A DNA stretch of 64,000 bases from Winogradskyella schleiferi. Its GTDB lineage: Bacteria; Bacteroidota; Bacteroidia; Flavobacteriales; Flavobacteriaceae. The notes below the pieces were generated by a model. That model did not search any database and had not been told where the DNA came from. It saw only the letters and a program-made list of their open reading frames with translations. A program made the position numbers and the translations under genes. Shown here piece after piece: positions 57,382 through 63,762 of this stretch (the first letter of the stretch is position 1; each line of letters opens with the position of its first letter). The stretch lies in the NCBI RefSeq assembly GCF_013394655.1, contig NZ_CP053351.1:248001-312000 (forward strand), written 5' to 3'.

Positions 57382-57455
57382 GGTCTGGTAGTTCAGTTGG
57401 TTAGAATGTCGCCCTGTCACGGCGAAGGTCGCGGGTTCGAGTCCCGTCCAGACCG
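57382..57455 (+). tRNA. tRNA-Asp (GTC)
   Basis: 74 nucleotides. Acceptor GGTCTGG pairs with CCAGACC (57448-57454), discriminator G. D-loop GTTCAGTTGGTTAGAAT, anticodon stem TCGCC/GGCGA with loop CTGTCAC and anticodon GTC at 57416-57418, T-arm GCGGG-TTCGAGT-CCCGT. CCA is not encoded. A terminator-type hairpin begins 16 bases downstream. Confidence 0.96.
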
Positions 57456-57471
57456 CTAAAATTGCAAAACT

Positions 57472-57735
57472 AAAGCTTCAAGAGATTGAGGCTTTTTTTA
57501 AGCAAAATTCCCAATGTCTCGGGACTAAAAATGTTGTGTTGTTCTAGGAGAAATCCTAGAGTAGTTGTAAGATTCCCAATCAAATTGGGAGCTTACCAAT
57601 GAAAGGCTTTCCTTTTTTCTTTTTAAGAAGATTGGGATGCTTTTTTGTTTTTAGCCTATATAGTCTGCATTTTTCAGCAAATATACCCTGTATTAGGTAT
57701 GGTATTACGGTTTATTGTGCATTAGATTGCATAGC
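57472..57735 (+). repeat. Repeat R, copy 1: tRNA-Asp terminator plus leader segment
   Basis: Starts with the hairpin AAAGCTTCAAGAGATTGAGG then CTTTTTTT (terminator of tRNA-Asp), continues with TTCCCAATGTCTCGGGAC, a CTAGGAGAAATCCTAG hairpin, ATTCCCAATCAAATTGGGAG, a poly-T/poly-A stretch with AAGAAGATTGGGATGC and ends with ATACCCTGTATTAGGTATGG and ATTAGATTGCATA. It forms the leader of the first T9SS gene. Parts recur at 59674 and 62966. Confidence 0.75.
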
Positions 57736-57757
57736 AACTAAAAAACATCAACCAATT

Positions 57758-59443
57758 ATGAAAAAATTACGTGTTATTATTTTACTGATCTTGTTTTCAA
57801 CAGTTCTAAATGCTCAAGAGACTGTTTTAGAGTGGTCTAATTCTATTGGCGGAACAGGTGCCGACTTTAGTGCTTCAATAACAATTGATAATTTGGGGAA
57901 TACATATGTTACTGGTAATTTTTCTGGAACAGTTGACTTTGATCCATCTTTCTCAGTTTTTAATTTAACGTCTAACGGTGCTGATGATATTTATATTCAA
58001 AAATTAGATCCTAACGGCAATTTCGTTTGGGCTAAATCATTAGGGGGAACGAGTTTTGATAGAGGAAATGCGATTACTACTGATAGTTTTGGCAATGTAT
58101 ATGTGGCAGGATATTTTCAATTAACAGCCGATTTTGACCCAGGAGCTTCTTCTTTTAATTTATCTTCTAATGGGTTGCAAGATGCTTTTCTTTTAAAACT
58201 TGATAGCTCGGGCGATTTTATCTTAGCTAGAGCATTTGGTTCTGCTGGTAGCAATTGGTTTTGGGGGTTAAATATAGACTTAAATGGTGATATTATTCTT
58301 TCAGGTCTTTTTGCTGATCTAGTAGATTTTGATCCAAGTGCTTCAACTTTTTTTATGGATTCTGGATCATCTGCAGAACAAGATGTAGTTATTCTAAAAT
58401 TAGATTCAAATGCAGATTTTTTATGGGCAAAACAAATTGATGGTTTAGAATCTGACGAAAATTGGTCTAATACAACTGATGATTTAGGAAACATTTATAT
58501 TACAGGTAACTTTAAGGGCACCACAAATTTTGACCCTAATAATTCTGATTTTTCATTAACATCTAATGGAGATTTTGATGCGTTTGTTCTTAAGTTGAAT
58601 ACAAGTGGGAATTTTCTTTGGGCTAAATCTATAGGAGGTAATTTACTTGATAAAGGATATTCTATAAAATCAAAAGGGTCTAATGTTTATCTAAGTGGAA
58701 GATTTGAAAGTACCGTAGATTTTGATCCTAATGCATCAATATTTAATATGACTTCTAATGGTGGATATGATAGTTTCGTGCTTAAATTAAATAGTGAGGG
58801 AGATTTTATATGGGCTAAGTCTACTGGAGGAAGTTCTCAAGACCTGGGTAGGGGTTTATCCATAGATTCAGCGGGTTCTATATATGTTACAGGAAGCTTT
58901 GGAGGTACTGTAGATTTTGATCCAAATAATTCAGTGAATAATTTAACTTCTAACGGTAACGAAGATATTTTTATTCAAAAATTAGATTCAGATGGTAACT
59001 TAATGTATGCGCAATCCTTTGGAGGAGCATTATTTGACCAAGGTTATTCTATTGCATTTGATAATCTTGATAATTTGCATTTAACTGGTATATACCAAGA
59101 TGTTGTAGATTTTGACCCCAGCTCTTCTGTCTTTAATATGACTTCAAATGGAGATTCCGATGTTTTTGTTCTAAAGTTAAGCCAACTAGGATTAGGATTA
59201 GTTGAGAATAACTTTCTTAAAACTATAGAAATTTACCCTAATCCTGTTAAAGATATGCTTACTATAAATTCAAAACAACCTATAGATCATGTTATAATTT
59301 ATAGTCTTTTAGGGCAAAAAGTAGTATCATATAAAGACTTAGCCAATAATAAAATAGATATTTCTAATTTTTCAAAAGGATTATACATTTTAACTGCTGA
59401 AATAAATGGAGCGATACAATCGATAAAATTTGTAAAAGAGTAA
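57758..59443 (+). CDS. T9SS-exported protein with seven SBBP-like/FDP repeats
   Basis: 561 residues from the ATG at 57758, which begins a signal peptide (LRVIILLILFSTVLNAQ). An upstream in-frame ATG at 57599 belongs to the duplicated leader and is rejected. The body has seven repeats of about 60 residues, each with D-x-x-G-N-x-Y-x-x-G-x-F then V-D-F-D-P and ending L-x-SNG-x-x-D-x-F-x-x-KL (SBBP/beta-propeller-like, possibly calcium-binding). The C-terminal 75 residues (IEIYPNPVKDMLTINSKQ, then SLLGQKVVSYKD, SKGLYILTAEI) are a T9SS type A sorting domain nearly identical at DNA level to that of the gene at 60039. The rest of the two proteins is unrelated. Confidence 0.87.
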   Translation: MKKLRVIILLILFSTVLNAQETVLEWSNSIGGTGADFSASITIDNLGNTYVTGNFSGTVDFDPSFSVFNLTSNGADDIYIQKLDPNGNFVWAKSLGGTSFDRGNAITTDSFGNVYVAGYFQLTADFDPGASSFNLSSNGLQDAFLLKLDSSGDFILARAFGSAGSNWFWGLNIDLNGDIILSGLFADLVDFDPSASTFFMDSGSSAEQDVVILKLDSNADFLWAKQIDGLESDENWSNTTDDLGNIYITGNFKGTTNFDPNNSDFSLTSNGDFDAFVLKLNTSGNFLWAKSIGGNLLDKGYSIKSKGSNVYLSGRFESTVDFDPNASIFNMTSNGGYDSFVLKLNSEGDFIWAKSTGGSSQDLGRGLSIDSAGSIYVTGSFGGTVDFDPNNSVNNLTSNGNEDIFIQKLDSDGNLMYAQSFGGALFDQGYSIAFDNLDNLHLTGIYQDVVDFDPSSSVFNMTSNGDSDVFVLKLSQLGLGLVENNFLKTIEIYPNPVKDMLTINSKQPIDHVIIYSLLGQKVVSYKDLANNKIDISNFSKGLYILTAEINGAIQSIKFVKE

Positions 59444-59474
59444 TCAACTATTCCAGATTGTTTTACCCATTAAC
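59259..59474 (+). repeat. Shared T9SS sorting-domain/3'-flank block, copy 1
   Basis: Matches 62551-62766 with only one difference seen by eye (TTAGGGC versus TTGGGGC), covering 185 coding bases and 31 bases past the stop. Similarity continues at a lower level for the rest of the 230-base 3' flank, which has exactly the same length in both copies, up to repeat R. Confidence 0.85.
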
Positions 59475-60038
59475 GTCGTCTATATAAAACTAACAGAGGA
59501 TATTGTTTATTTAAAACGAGGTTAACGATTGTCTTAGCGAGATTGAAATATCTTCTTTAAAAGTTTTTTTGAAATTAATACAGCTGATACTATTTTGGCG
59601 TTTCAGAATATAAAAGAACATCATGCTAAATGATTTAAACATTTTTAATTCTAACTGTTAAACATTTGGAAATAAAGCTTCAAGAGATTGAGGCTTTGCT
59701 TTTTTTCTTTTTAAGAAGATTGGGATGCTTTTTTGTTTTTAGCCTATATTGTCTGCATTTTCAGCAAATATACCCTGTATTAGGTATGGTGTTATGTTTT
59801 GTTGTATATTAGATTGCATATCAAATATAAACACTTAATCTAGGCTATTATTTAACATACTAAATGTGTTTATGTTAAAGGTGCTTAAGAACTAAGCCTT
59901 AATGTGTATTCATAAGGTTTTCACGTTGATAAGGTATGTATCTTTTTTTTACCTCTTGTAAGTCATTATTGAATAACATAAATTAGGAGTCTTTAAGATC
60001 TCCTATTTTAATAACCAATCAATTAAAGTTTTTAAATT
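59444..60038. other. 595-bp intergenic region between the two T9SS genes
   Basis: No gene. The first 230 bases are the shared 3' flank, then repeat R copy 2 (59674-59823), then about 215 bases of unique AT-rich leader of the next gene containing a small TAGGAG/CTCCTA hairpin at about 59983-60005. Confidence 0.65.
59674..59823 (+). repeat. Repeat R, copy 2, with an internal deletion
   Basis: Begins with the same AAAGCTTCAAGAGATTGAGG hairpin but jumps from AGGCTTT directly to the TTCTTTTTAAGAAGATTGGG part. Relative to copy 1 about 115 bases between two AGGCTTT motifs (57489 and 57604) are missing, as expected from a deletion between short direct repeats. The 3' half (GCCTATATTGTCTGCATTTT, then AGCAAATATACCCTG, TATTAGGTATGG) matches copy 1. 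Confidence 0.75.
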
Positions 60039-62735
60039 ATGAAAAATTACTACTGTCTTATTTTTGTAACATTATGCTGTGTTTTTAGTTTAAATGCTCA
60101 ATTAGAAGGGTCTTGGCGAATTTCTCCAGAGGTAGGAGCCTTAAAATTTGGACCAGAACCAGGTTCTGATCTTTGGTACATTAATGATCCTCAAACACTC
60201 ATAGATAGAGCTTGTTTTTTTGACGATACATATGTTTTCAATATGGATGGTTCATTTCATAATCTTTTAGGATCTGAAACTTGGATAGAAGAATTTCAAG
60301 GTGCTTCAACGCTAGGGCAATGTGATGTCCCGGTTTTTCCTCATGATGGAACAGCCAATGCAACTTACGTTTATGATGATATTGCAGGGACCATTACACT
60401 TAATGGACAAGGGTCGTTTTTGGGACTAGCAGTTGCAAATAATGAAGGAAATTTAACTGATCTCCTTAACGTACCACAATCGATAACTTATGACGTGGTT
60501 TTATCAGACAATAATAGCGTAATGACCCTTTCTATAGAGTCAGGCACTGGTTCGTTTTGGACCTTCAAACTTATTAGCGTTGATCTAGTGAATATTATAG
60601 ACACCAATTTCGAAAATTATTTAGAAACGCATAATGCTAATGGTGATGCAGTCGCGTTAGGAGATGCCTCGAGCATGGGTGATGGTGTTCTCAATAATTT
60701 AACCTTAAAAAGCAGAGTAGAGAACGTTACTGAGCTTAATGTCAATGATAGTAACATAGCTAGTCTACAGGGTATAGAGGCGTTTACTAATTTAGAAATA
60801 TTATTCTGCCAAAGAAATCTACTAACGAGTCTCGATGTTTCTCAGAACCTAGCGTTAGAAGAACTGGAGTGCGAAACGAATCAATTATCTACCTTAAACG
60901 TAAGTCAAAATACGGCCTTAAGGGTTTTGGGATGTTCAGACACCAATTTATCAACCATAGATGTCAGTAATAATTTATTGTTGGAAGCGATATGGTTTAC
61001 CAATAACAATATCGAAAGTTTAAATTTAGATAGCAATACAGCACTGCGAACGTATGGACTCTCCAACAACCCGTTGGTTTATATGTCCATCAAAAATGGA
61101 AATAATGCAAATATGCTATATATTGAAGCTCAGAATTTACCGAGTTTAACCTGTATTGAGGTTGATGATGAAAATGCAGCTTATTTAAGTGAAAGTAACT
61201 GGAATGTAGATCCGAGTATCACATTTAGTAATGATTGTGGTACTTTTTTTATATCAGACACCAATTTCGAAAATTATTTAGAAACGCATAATGCTAATGG
61301 TGATGCAGTCGCGTTAGGAGATGCCTCGAGCATGGGTGATGGTGTTCTCAATAATTTAACCTTAAAAAGCAGAGTAGAGAACGTTACTGAGCTTAATGTA
61401 AATGATAGTAACATAGCTAGTTTACAGGGTATAGAGGCGTTTACTGATTTAGAAATATTATTCTGCCAAAGAAATCTACTAACGAGTCTCGATGTTTCTC
61501 AGAACCTAGCGTTAGAAGAACTGGAGTGCGAAACGAATCAATTATCTACCTTAAACGTAAGTCAAAATACGGCCTTAAGGGTTTTGGGATGTTCAGACAC
61601 CAATTTATCAACCATAGATGTCAGTAATAATTTATTGTTGGAAGCGATATGGTTTACCAATAACAATATCGAAAGTTTAAATTTAGATAGCAATACAGCA
61701 CTGCGAACGTATGGACTCTCCAACAACCCGTTGGTTTATATGTCCATCAAAAATGGAAATAATGCAAATATGCTATATATTGAAGCTCAGAATTTACCAA
61801 ATTTAACCTGTATTGAGGTTGATGATGAAAATGCAGCTTATTTAAGTGAAAGTAACTGGAATGTAGATCCGAGTATCTCCTTTGGGGAAGACTGTGGAGA
61901 TCTTTGGACAATTTATACATCTGATGTTAATTTAGATACGGCGTTGTCTGGTTATGGTAATGCGATTGATACTAACGGAGATGGAGAAATCACTCTTAAC
62001 GAGGCAGCAGCTTATACCGGTGTTTTAGACTTGAGTAACTCAGGTATTACTGATATTCAAGGACTACAAGGTTTTACAGCGGTTACGGAAATTAATCTTT
62101 CAGGTAATGATATTACAGACTTAAGTCCATTGTTTGGAAGTAGTACCGTAATTTTAATTAATAGACAAACCCAATTGAGAACTGTAGCGAATTCTAGTTT
62201 TTCAGCGCTCTCCGTTTTAGATGTAAGTGATAATAATCTTGAAAGTATTGACCTAAGTGAATTAACAACTTTAGTAGAATTTTACTGCTCTAATAATGCA
62301 TTAAATAGTCTCAACGTAAAAAATGGTAATAATGAAATCTTGACAAGTTTTGATGCGTCAAATAACTCAGAATTGAGTTGTATAGAAGTGGATAATGCCA
62401 TCGCGGCGAGTTCGGGATTAAATTCATATAGCTCGTGGATTAAAGACACACTAGCAATTTATTCTGAAGATTGTTTCAGCACATTAAGCATAGACGATAA
62501 TGATGGTATACCGTACATTTCAATTTTTCCAAACCCGGTTAAAGATGTACTTACTATAAATTCAAAACAACCTATAGATCATGTTATAATTTATAGTCTT
62601 TTGGGGCAAAAAGTAGTATCATATAAAGACTTAGCCAATAATAAAATAGATATTTCTAATTTTTCAAAAGGATTATACATTTTAACTGCTGAAATAAATG
62701 GAGCGATACAATCGATAAAATTTGTAAAAGAGTAA
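60039..62735 (+). CDS. T9SS-exported leucine-rich-repeat protein with a recent internal duplication
   Basis: 898 residues. Signal peptide (about 1-20, LIFVTLCCVFSLNAQ), an N-terminal beta domain (about 21-180, LEGSWRISPEVGALKFGPEP), then two almost identical 207-residue LRR units at about 188-394 and 407-613. Each starts DTNFENYLETHNANGD, carries 21-residue LRRs such as LTSLDVSQNLALEELECETN and LSTIDVSNNLLLEAIWFTNN, and ends with an I-E-V-D-D-E-N-A capping segment. A third, diverged LRR unit (about 635-815) has an EF-hand-like DTNGDGEITLNE at 644. The C-terminal T9SS type A domain (about 825-898) is shared with the gene at 57758. A surface protein, perhaps an adhesin; function unknown. Confidence 0.87.
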   Translation: MKNYYCLIFVTLCCVFSLNAQLEGSWRISPEVGALKFGPEPGSDLWYINDPQTLIDRACFFDDTYVFNMDGSFHNLLGSETWIEEFQGASTLGQCDVPVFPHDGTANATYVYDDIAGTITLNGQGSFLGLAVANNEGNLTDLLNVPQSITYDVVLSDNNSVMTLSIESGTGSFWTFKLISVDLVNIIDTNFENYLETHNANGDAVALGDASSMGDGVLNNLTLKSRVENVTELNVNDSNIASLQGIEAFTNLEILFCQRNLLTSLDVSQNLALEELECETNQLSTLNVSQNTALRVLGCSDTNLSTIDVSNNLLLEAIWFTNNNIESLNLDSNTALRTYGLSNNPLVYMSIKNGNNANMLYIEAQNLPSLTCIEVDDENAAYLSESNWNVDPSITFSNDCGTFFISDTNFENYLETHNANGDAVALGDASSMGDGVLNNLTLKSRVENVTELNVNDSNIASLQGIEAFTDLEILFCQRNLLTSLDVSQNLALEELECETNQLSTLNVSQNTALRVLGCSDTNLSTIDVSNNLLLEAIWFTNNNIESLNLDSNTALRTYGLSNNPLVYMSIKNGNNANMLYIEAQNLPNLTCIEVDDENAAYLSESNWNVDPSISFGEDCGDLWTIYTSDVNLDTALSGYGNAIDTNGDGEITLNEAAAYTGVLDLSNSGITDIQGLQGFTAVTEINLSGNDITDLSPLFGSSTVILINRQTQLRTVANSSFSALSVLDVSDNNLESIDLSELTTLVEFYCSNNALNSLNVKNGNNEILTSFDASNNSELSCIEVDNAIAASSGLNSYSSWIKDTLAIYSEDCFSTLSIDDNDGIPYISIFPNPVKDVLTINSKQPIDHVIIYSLLGQKVVSYKDLANNKIDISNFSKGLYILTAEINGAIQSIKFVKE
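60600..61220 (+). repeat. 621-bp tandem duplication in the LRR gene, unit 1
   Basis: Repeated at 61257-61877 with five base differences by eye (about 99% identity); period 657 bases = 219 codons, so the frame is kept. Two of the changes alter residues at one position each (Asn to Asp, Ser to Asn). Confidence 0.9.
61257..61877 (+). repeat. 621-bp tandem duplication in the LRR gene, unit 2
   Basis: Second copy of the 60600-61220 unit. The 36 bases between the units are unique and encode a short linker containing NDCGTFFIS. Confidence 0.9.
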
Positions 62736-62766
62736 TCAACTATTCCAGATTGTTTTACCCATTAAC
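62551..62766 (+). repeat. Shared T9SS sorting-domain/3'-flank block, copy 2
   Basis: Counterpart of 59259-59474, offset 3292 bases. The 3' flank to repeat R is again 230 bases (62736-62965) with roughly four fifths identity outside the block. Confidence 0.85.
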
Positions 62767-62965
62767 ATCTATCTAGAACCAGCAGAAGATGTTGTTTTGT
62801 TTAAAAGGAGGTTCACGATTGTCTTAGCGAGATTGAAATATCTTCTTTAAAAGTTTTTTTGAAATTAATACAACTGATACTATTAGAGCGTTTAAGAATA
62901 TAAAAGAACATCATGTTAATTGATTTAAATTTATTCGTGATTCTACTGTTAAATCATTTGGAAAT

Positions 62966-63158
62966 AAAGCTTCAAGAGATTGAGGCTTTTTTTAAGCAAG
63001 GTTCCCAATGTCTTGGGACTAAAAATGTTGTGTTTTTCTAGGAGAAATCTTAGAGTAGTTGTAAGATTCCCAATCAAATTGTGAGCTTACCAATGAAAGG
63101 TTTTCCTTTTTTCTGTTCCGATAGCTATCGGAAGAAGATGGGATGCTTTTTTGTTTTA
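62966..63158 (+). repeat. Repeat R, copy 3, with a palindrome inserted
   Basis: Carries the full 5' half of copy 1 (AAAGCTTCAAGAGATTGAGG hairpin, TCCCAATGTCTTGGGAC, AATCTTAGAGTAGTTGTAAG, CCAATCAAATTGTGAGC), but in place of CTTTTTAAGAAGATTGGG it has an 18-base perfect palindrome followed by AGAAGATGGGATGC, and it stops after TTTTTTGTTTTAGG. The first hairpin serves as terminator of the LRR gene. Confidence 0.75.
63116..63133. repeat. 18-bp perfect palindrome TTCCGATAGCTATCGGAA
   Basis: Lies inside repeat R copy 3 and is absent from copies 1 and 2. I recall this palindrome as a frequent dispersed repeat in flavobacterial genomes. Confidence 0.65.
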
Positions 63159-63305
63159 GGACGGTTTTGGGATATTTATCCATGACGTCCATTATTTAAC
63201 TTATAGCTTATTACAAATTACACTTCTCCATTTTAATTAAGAATTTTATAAATACAACGATAGGTCTAAAGTCTAAGTTGTCAACAAGTTATGAACACAA
63301 AATAT

Positions 63306-63338
63306 GCGTTTAGTCGAACAATAAAAGCGTTTAGTCGA
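63306..63338 (+). promoter_or_regulatory. Tandem 12-bp direct repeat, candidate LytTR-type operator
   Basis: GCGTTTAGTCGA at 63306-63317 and again at 63327-63338, 21 bases start to start with a nine-base spacer. The pair ends 30 bases before TATATTTG at 63369, an activator-type position. The promoter has no -33 TTG, consistent with activator dependence. Confidence 0.55.
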
Positions 63339-63591: not shown

Positions 63592-63762
63592 ATGAAAACC
63601 CTAAAAATTACTTTTGCTCTTGCAGCTATTATGTTATTAACTGTATCTGGTGTACAATCTGAATCAAATTCAGTTTCTGAAAACAATGAAATTAAACAAC
63701 CAACTAAGATTGAATTGTTGGCTCATAATAAAGCAAAAGTAAAAAAACCTACTAATATGTAA
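63592..63762 (+). CDS. Small exported peptide (56 residues)
   Basis: The chain begins MKTLKITFALAAIMLLTVSG, a clear signal peptide, with likely cleavage near VQS-ES, leaving about 33 residues. The mature part starts acidic and polar (ESNSVSENNE) and ends basic (HNKAKVKKPTNM). It is flanked by a candidate LytTR-type operator, a -7 element and a strong terminator, so it looks like a real, separately regulated gene. No family is recognised. It could be a signalling or surface-active peptide; this is speculation. Confidence 0.65.
   Translation: MKTLKITFALAAIMLLTVSGVQSESNSVSENNEIKQPTKIELLAHNKAKVKKPTNM

Follow-up and report, generated by a model that had tools for sequence, protein, structure and literature searches.

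Two T9SS gene modules between copies of a predicted structured element at the tRNA-Asp locus of Winogradskyella schleiferi

In Winogradskyella schleiferi, two adjacent genes with different passengers and shared T9SS sorting domains lie behind a tRNA-Asp gene, punctuated by three copies of an element named here R. The preferred reading, with a probability of about 0.6, is that these two modules accreted at an integration hotspot at tRNA-Asp, followed by a tail exchange between the genes and by a duplication within the LRR gene. An earlier note on this DNA had proposed a device for surface variation; the more interesting result is the wider pattern of inserted genes punctuated by an RNA-like element that follows tRNA-Asp. 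The window, meaning the whole stretch of 64,000 nucleotides that was analysed, covers bases 248001-312000 of a single-contig genome of 4.56 Mb.

The locus and its two modules

The features of the locus are the following, in window coordinates.

57382..57456, + strand: tRNA-Asp (GTC), putative landing site (ARAGORN; Rfam RF00005)
57472..57651, + strand: R1, the tRNA trailer hairpin (from 57472) plus a core at 57526-57651 (covariance-model E 8.3e-36)
57652..57757, + strand: leader 1, with the palindrome-like motif TACCCTGTATTAGGTA at 57684-57699 (sequence comparison)
57758..59443, + strand: SBBP beta-propeller-repeat protein with a T9SS type A sorting domain, 561 aa (ORF; domain profiles; ortholog P0001)
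59255..59473, + strand: sorting-domain block, copy 1, the near-identity (putative conversion) tract (alignment)
59444..59673, + strand: 230-bp 3' flank, copy 1 (alignment)
59674..59742, + strand: R2, a truncated R with the trailer hairpin and 3' half (covariance-model E 2.0e-4; no stable fold)
59743..59831, + strand: leader 2, shared part, with the motif at 59771-59786 (alignment)
60039..62735, + strand: LRR protein with a T9SS type A sorting domain, 898 aa (ORF; domain profiles; ortholog P0124)
60599..61897, + strand: internal tandem duplication of the LRR region (copies 60599-61240 and 61256-61897; 630/642 identical)
62547..62765, + strand: sorting-domain block, copy 2, probable donor (alignment, orthologs)
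62736..62965, + strand: 230-bp 3' flank, copy 2 (alignment)
62966..63158, + strand: R3, a full R with a 13-nt palindromic insertion, presumed native copy (alignment; adjoins conserved downstream region)

The start motif of R is found exactly where the earlier note had placed its three copies, at 57472, 59674 and 62966, and the first copy directly follows the tRNA, which ends at 57456. R1 and R3 are full copies with 94% identity over 156 bp, while R2, described as a further copy, proved to be truncated, keeping ~28 bp at the start and ~50 bp at the end of R and lacking the middle ~110 bp. Three hairpins are predicted in the R1 core (57526-57651), with the terminator at its 3' end. Within the genome, R or parts of it occur at three sites only, all at the tRNA-Asp locus. 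The 3' flanks are indeed of equal length, 230 bp, and 87.6% identical, and the reported leader repeats are present as stretches of 66 bp with 95% and 74 bp with 88% identity, common to both leaders. Both modules are thus alike at the left end (R parts and ~90 bp of leader) and at the right end (tail and 230-bp flank), with 88-96% identity. Chance is ruled out for these repeats, because their genome-search E-values range from 1e-49 to 1e-193.

As had been noticed, the passengers of the adjacent genes are unrelated, SBBP beta-propeller repeats in one and LRR in the other, and both proteins end in Por_Secre_tail/TIGR04183. These sorting domains score above the curated cut-offs (PF18962, 45.7 and 43.9 bits with a cut-off of 27; TIGR04183, 45.5 and 43.6 with a cut-off of 23), and by these profiles both genes are T9SS type A cargo, predicted surface proteins. 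No second copy of either passenger is found in the genome and no close ortholog in the 67 other congeners, where the best SBBP relatives have 35% identity. At E <= 1e-20, the SBBP protein has matches in 20/68 genus genomes (own included) and the LRR protein in 54/68, the best outside its own gene being all partial; the best congener LRR relatives are 43-45% identical in the repeat region, or at most 54% where the match covers just the N-terminal ~160 residues. In the family sample, LRR matches at E <= 1e-60 occur in 7/397 genomes (own included), the others being partial, at 40-61%. The passengers, lying between the tRNA and conserved downstream genes and lacking a close ortholog in congeners, are accessory and probably acquired. 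At its N-terminus, the LRR protein has a separate domain of ~160 residues, which is also present elsewhere in the same genome and across the genus, often in tandem, in ~700-aa proteins (e.g. G000:C1:612141-613097).

The near-identical block reported to run past the stop codon is confirmed, with 216/219 positions identical between 59255-59473 and 62547-62765, including one exact run of 162 bp and ~30 bp beyond the stop. Identity is 41/61 before the block and 175/196 beyond it, and the difference between the tract and the sequence beyond gives a Fisher p of 3e-5, with tract borders set after viewing the alignment. A genome search for further copies, as the earlier note had advised, finds exactly two copies of the tail-plus-flank block. 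Matches occur in 19/68 genomes of the genus, those outside the own genome being short only (E 3e-8 or worse), and the block has no real relative in the 67 other congeners. The alignment supports the shared sorting domain as a probable recombination tract, formed by gene conversion or crossover between neighbours. Of the recombination once proposed among the repeats, that on the sorting-domain block is supported by its sharp near-identity tract; ongoing swapping is not supported, since no alternative arrangement of the two passengers is found in any genome searched.

Regarding the direction of copying, the metagenome ortholog of the LRR protein, P0124, is 96.5% identical over 679 aligned residues and 73/75 in the tail, compared to 87.7% overall and 58/75 in the tail for P0001, the SBBP ortholog, which is variable elsewhere too (27/35 in two other bins). 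These tail values point to the LRR gene as the original home of the tail, and the comparison suggests that it was copied from there to the SBBP gene, in which the shared tail begins after its own residues LKTIEIYPNPV. The tandem duplication of the LRR gene, with a spacing of 657 bp (219 aa), is absent in P0124.

Concerning the leaders, the TACCCTGTATTAGGTA motif present in both has only two exact sites in the genome, and ~31 bp around it also occur upstream of genes in four congeners (G005, G014, G056, G057), which by eye look like a TPR histidine-kinase operon. The leader motif TACCCNNNATTAGGTA was considered as the mark of a regulon and rejected, its 11 own-genome sites (<=1 mismatch) compared to 5 for the reversed pattern being too weak.

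Structure and distribution of R

Folding and covariation support R as a conserved element of ~125 nt with three predicted RNA hairpins, the last of them an intrinsic terminator. Four full R copies have fold z-scores of -2.6 to -5.2 relative to shuffles, whereas R2 (-0.44) folds no better than shuffles. In 16 copies of the same length class, picked by eye after an intermediate set of 20, compensatory changes are seen in 13/42 pairs, and 96.8% of the cells are paired, compared to 43-60% in slid controls. When all 60 R copies are given to RNAalifold, it returns the terminator hairpin alone (17 pairs, 3 with double changes); hairpins 1 and 2 thus rest on the 16-copy subset. A scan with Rfam 15 was made for a known RNA, and tRNA alone reaches its gathering score, no family doing so for R; likewise, no description of R was recognised in a partial collection of the literature.

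By covariance model, R lies 6-86 bp 3' of tRNA-Asp at 70/80 named loci, 15 of these loci having also served to build the model. The ten loci without it are L063, L070, L081, L096, L104, L117, L126, L136, L138 and L139, of which L117 is cut by a contig end. R also adjoins tRNA-Asp in 24 of the 30 best family-wide matches fetched (window included). In the family sample, a match at E <= 1e-3 is present in 238/397 genomes and 161/237 genera, and 47 of the 238 have at least two matches, a count made by eye in which some may be weak reverse-strand matches. The order sample has matches in 24/296 genomes, all but two from the same family, Flavobacteriaceae, and none in many genomes of one large genus. 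When R and leader are searched together in the genus, 67/68 genomes match (own included), 56 of them once and 11 at least twice. In G068 and G071, the only match spans 24 bp, in G071 within the leader, and for G005, G014, G019, G056 and G057 the second match is short or confined to the leader.

R belongs to tRNA-Asp and is not T9SS-specific. A repeat of passenger cassettes, as which it was also considered, is ruled out by its presence behind tRNA-Asp in species without such cargo, and the same linkage speaks against R as part of the T9SS-specific device that the earlier note had in mind. A home-made tail profile run over 105 tRNA-Asp loci, drawn from overlapping G and named sets and including the window genome, matches 11 ORFs, two of them the genes of the window. 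One lies directly downstream of tRNA-Asp in L132, with a Pfam tail match below the cut-off, those of L067 and L068 are upstream of the tRNA, and six others are 5.6-7.0 kb downstream. Sorting-domain ORFs directly 3' of tRNA-Asp are thus seen, across the 105 loci, in this genome and, at best, in L132. As such ORFs are few, T9SS cargo is one kind among many at tRNA-Asp.

Islands and cargo at tRNA-Asp

The recurrent order in congeners is DUF58 gene, tRNA-Asp, R, downstream region, histidine kinase and response regulator, with R following the tRNA with or without cargo. When the DUF58 protein is searched, the nearest named records are from Winogradskyella species, with 93-95% identity. A doubled GCGTTTAGTCGA motif was also observed at 63297-63338 and 63592-63762, upstream of a small ORF of 56 aa, and similar sequence is present 3' of R in many congeners.

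Two congeners carry evident islands at this site. In G043, a perfect 182-bp repeat made of 12 bp of tRNA, the trailer and R flanks an ~18.7-kb island, which starts at a 23-bp tRNA remnant with a tyrosine recombinase as its first gene, the full tRNA-Asp being further upstream. G011, which is closest to the present strain among 24 congeners compared (95% in the DUF58 gene), has an ~54-kb island between tRNA-Asp and R, with a 23-bp tRNA repeat and again a tyrosine recombinase first. The G011 island does not re-supply R beside the tRNA, so this re-supply is not obligatory. A direct repeat with the tRNA 3' end at the far border is seen in G043, G081 and G011, and the recombinases beside tRNA or R in sister loci combine Arm-DNA-bind_5, Phage_int_SAM_5 and Phage_integrase.

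Comparing the tRNA-Asp locus across related species, as the earlier note had recommended, reveals R copies bounding different cargo. The survey comprised 20 stretches from 19 genomes, picked for having several R matches, and gives no estimate of frequency. tRNA-Asp is present in 18 of them, 17 of the 18 have two or more R copies in the same orientation as the tRNA, and ORFs lie between the copies in 16. Extra R copies border integrase islands, Cas9 systems, transporters and some T9SS proteins inserted at tRNA-Asp. The 76 mechanical ORFs of >=80 aa between R copies in the 20 stretches match 79 Pfam families; the 25 most frequent include AraC-type helix-turn-helix (4), TPR (up to 6), CarboxypepD_reg (4), Cas1, Cas2 and Cas9-type nuclease domains (2 each), integrases (2), Por_Secre_tail (2) and CHU_C (2), and PADLOC assigns Cas9, Cas1 and Cas2 in two members each. 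T9SS tails occur in four of the 76 ORFs, one of these passengers being bounded by a weak R match in L288 (E 0.11).

Among 29 extra R copies, which include the weak matches of L293 (8843, flipped coordinates, E 0.007) and L294 (9282, E 0.005), eight belong to a repeat whose start lies well within the tRNA gene: seven start at -18 to -24 bp, two being diverged, and one takes in the whole tRNA. The other 21 have no clear tRNA start; for three of these the start, at -2 to -9 bp, leaves too little tRNA sequence for a judgement, and the remainder start somewhere between the tRNA and hairpin 3, with several close to a conserved CCAATG, or have no clear relation to R. Several half-R copies begin near hairpin 3, and those of L066, L072 and L121 sit 15-35 bp behind stop codons. 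L127 and L286 have a plain tandem duplication of R or of tRNA and R. In view of the tRNA-start repeats and of the G043 and G011 islands, the site is a tRNA island hotspot, with R copies as by-products or parts of attachment units.

Some single observations were made in the same stretches. Cas9, Cas1 and Cas2 lie between R copies at tRNA-Asp in L293 and L294 (genomes G192 and G389), the Cas9 proteins at this shared site being 1438 and 1129 aa long. L278 and L288 (genomes G300 and G164) have R arrays in a stretch without tRNA-Asp, one at a contig end and with an integrase nearby, possibly R arrays away from the usual site. Finally, a 105-aa ORF starting M(A/P)RIIA(V/I)GNV(K/R)SDGTI lies behind R in at least two species (L066, 11380-11697; L088, 11424-11741), the copy tested having no Pfam match.

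In the window, R3 is continuous with the downstream region conserved in congeners. The R of G011 has exactly the same 13-nt insertion as R3 and also agrees with it in the first bases that follow R. This insertion is exclusive to these two in an alignment of 60 R copies; it is a weak marker alone, because L106 has a similar palindrome in that loop, where L083, L088 and L128 have other insertions. On both grounds, R3 is best taken as the native copy, R1 and R2 having presumably come with insertions, which places both modules between the tRNA and the native R. The R3 repeat starts 5 bp after the tRNA and the best-matching stretch of R2 inside R, no recognisable tRNA 3' fragment being found at the window's own modules. 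No tyrosine recombinase is present between 57456 and 62966, where the two + strand ORFs of >=80 aa are the T9SS genes. With no integrase or clear tRNA fragment left in either module, their arrival by way of the hotspot is inferred.

Competing explanations and known systems

The preferred reading, accretion at the hotspot, can be set out as follows. In many Flavobacteriaceae, tRNA-Asp is followed by the conserved R, with its predicted structure ending in an intrinsic terminator. DNA inserting there may bring the tRNA 3' end with R, or R alone, and would leave extra R copies punctuating the inserted genes, a pattern seen in other species. Two T9SS genes whose outer ends are alike and whose passengers differ lie, in this strain, between tRNA-Asp and the presumed native R3, the integrase being absent. 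Later, gene conversion or crossover probably transferred the sorting-domain block of the LRR gene to the SBBP gene, and the LRR gene would have grown by the internal tandem duplication absent in the closest ortholog found. Against this reading stand the lack of a recognisable integrase or tRNA 3' fragment at the window modules and the 21/29 extra copies elsewhere that also have no clear tRNA start; half-R copies could also be what erosion has left of R, retained for termination, or terminators that were copied another way. A rather unlikely alternative is the in-place tandem duplication of an R-gene-tail-flank unit, with passenger replacement through the shared ends and no integrative element. 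The 88-96% identity of the module ends fits it, as do L127 and L286, where R or tRNA plus R is plainly duplicated. However, with no second copy or close ortholog of the passengers in the own genome or congeners, the replacing passenger must still be imported, and it is left unexplained why R copies in other species bound unrelated cargo at this site.

The earlier note favoured frequent recombination between R copies and sorting-domain blocks, swapping T9SS passengers in a dedicated surface-variation device. The sharp conversion tract in the tail, the same ends with different passengers and the LRR expansion relative to P0124 all agree with it, but R is linked to the tRNA and not to T9SS, only 4/76 R-bounded ORFs elsewhere have T9SS tails, tail ORFs directly 3' of tRNA-Asp hardly recur in the 105 loci, and the genome has two blocks only, with no silent donor copies; this device is thus not supported and is very unlikely. 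The least probable reading takes the extra R copies as terminators (the third hairpin) kept or copied behind imported genes, unrelated to gene entry, as the half-R copies starting near hairpin 3 and closely behind stop codons could suggest. Upstream tRNA sequence in 8/29 extra copies is not needed by a terminator, though, and R-type sequence is confined to the tRNA-Asp locus in the own genome and to a single match in 56/68 congeners.

Beyond accretion in this strain, a wider reading is put forward tentatively, in which tRNA-Asp and R form a composite landing pad across much of Flavobacteriaceae, the functional RNA R being re-supplied by inserting elements, with RNA-punctuated cargo arrays and T9SS sorting-domain exchange within them. 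If true, it would be an integron-like layout on a tRNA-linked RNA, with defence systems, transporters and T9SS surface proteins as cargo. The analysis as a whole turns a one-genome curiosity into a testable pattern across many genera, a structured element behind tRNA-Asp that is absent from Rfam 15. R copies at the hotspot point to inserted genes even where the integrase is gone, and the documented sorting-domain exchange between unrelated T9SS cargo bears on surface-protein diversification in Bacteroidota.

In integron gene-cassette arrays, a structured attC repeat lies between cassettes. R likewise separates successive single genes or small operons, which is a resemblance only, as R is tied to tRNA-Asp and carries a terminator, and its cargo blocks reach ~18 kb. 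Small RNAs derived from tRNA 3' trailers, such as the 3'ETS of leuZ, are structured RNAs just 3' of a tRNA. The predicted R element has the same position; unlike the leuZ 3'ETS, R has its own conserved multi-hairpin structure and is known from sequence alone. Rfp18, a newly described sRNA of Flavobacterium psychrophilum, is reported to be strongly structured, with at least three stem-loops (PMC9723704); it is flavobacterial and multi-stem-loop like R, a likeness in general description. Closest to the present site are the tRNA islands of the ICEEaIII group of Elizabethkingia and Chryseobacterium, integrative elements reported at several tRNA genes including tRNA-Asp-GTC (PMC8694125). Like them, the present site is tRNA-Asp, with direct repeats of 18-24 bp of the tRNA 3' end in several species, and, as in tyrosine-recombinase tRNA islands, which accrete in tandem, recombinases lie beside tRNA or R and variable cargo between the conserved tRNA and downstream genes. 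Unlike those islands, the window modules have no recognisable integrase or tRNA fragment, and the duplicated unit often runs past the tRNA through a structured element of ~125 nt that punctuates the cargo.
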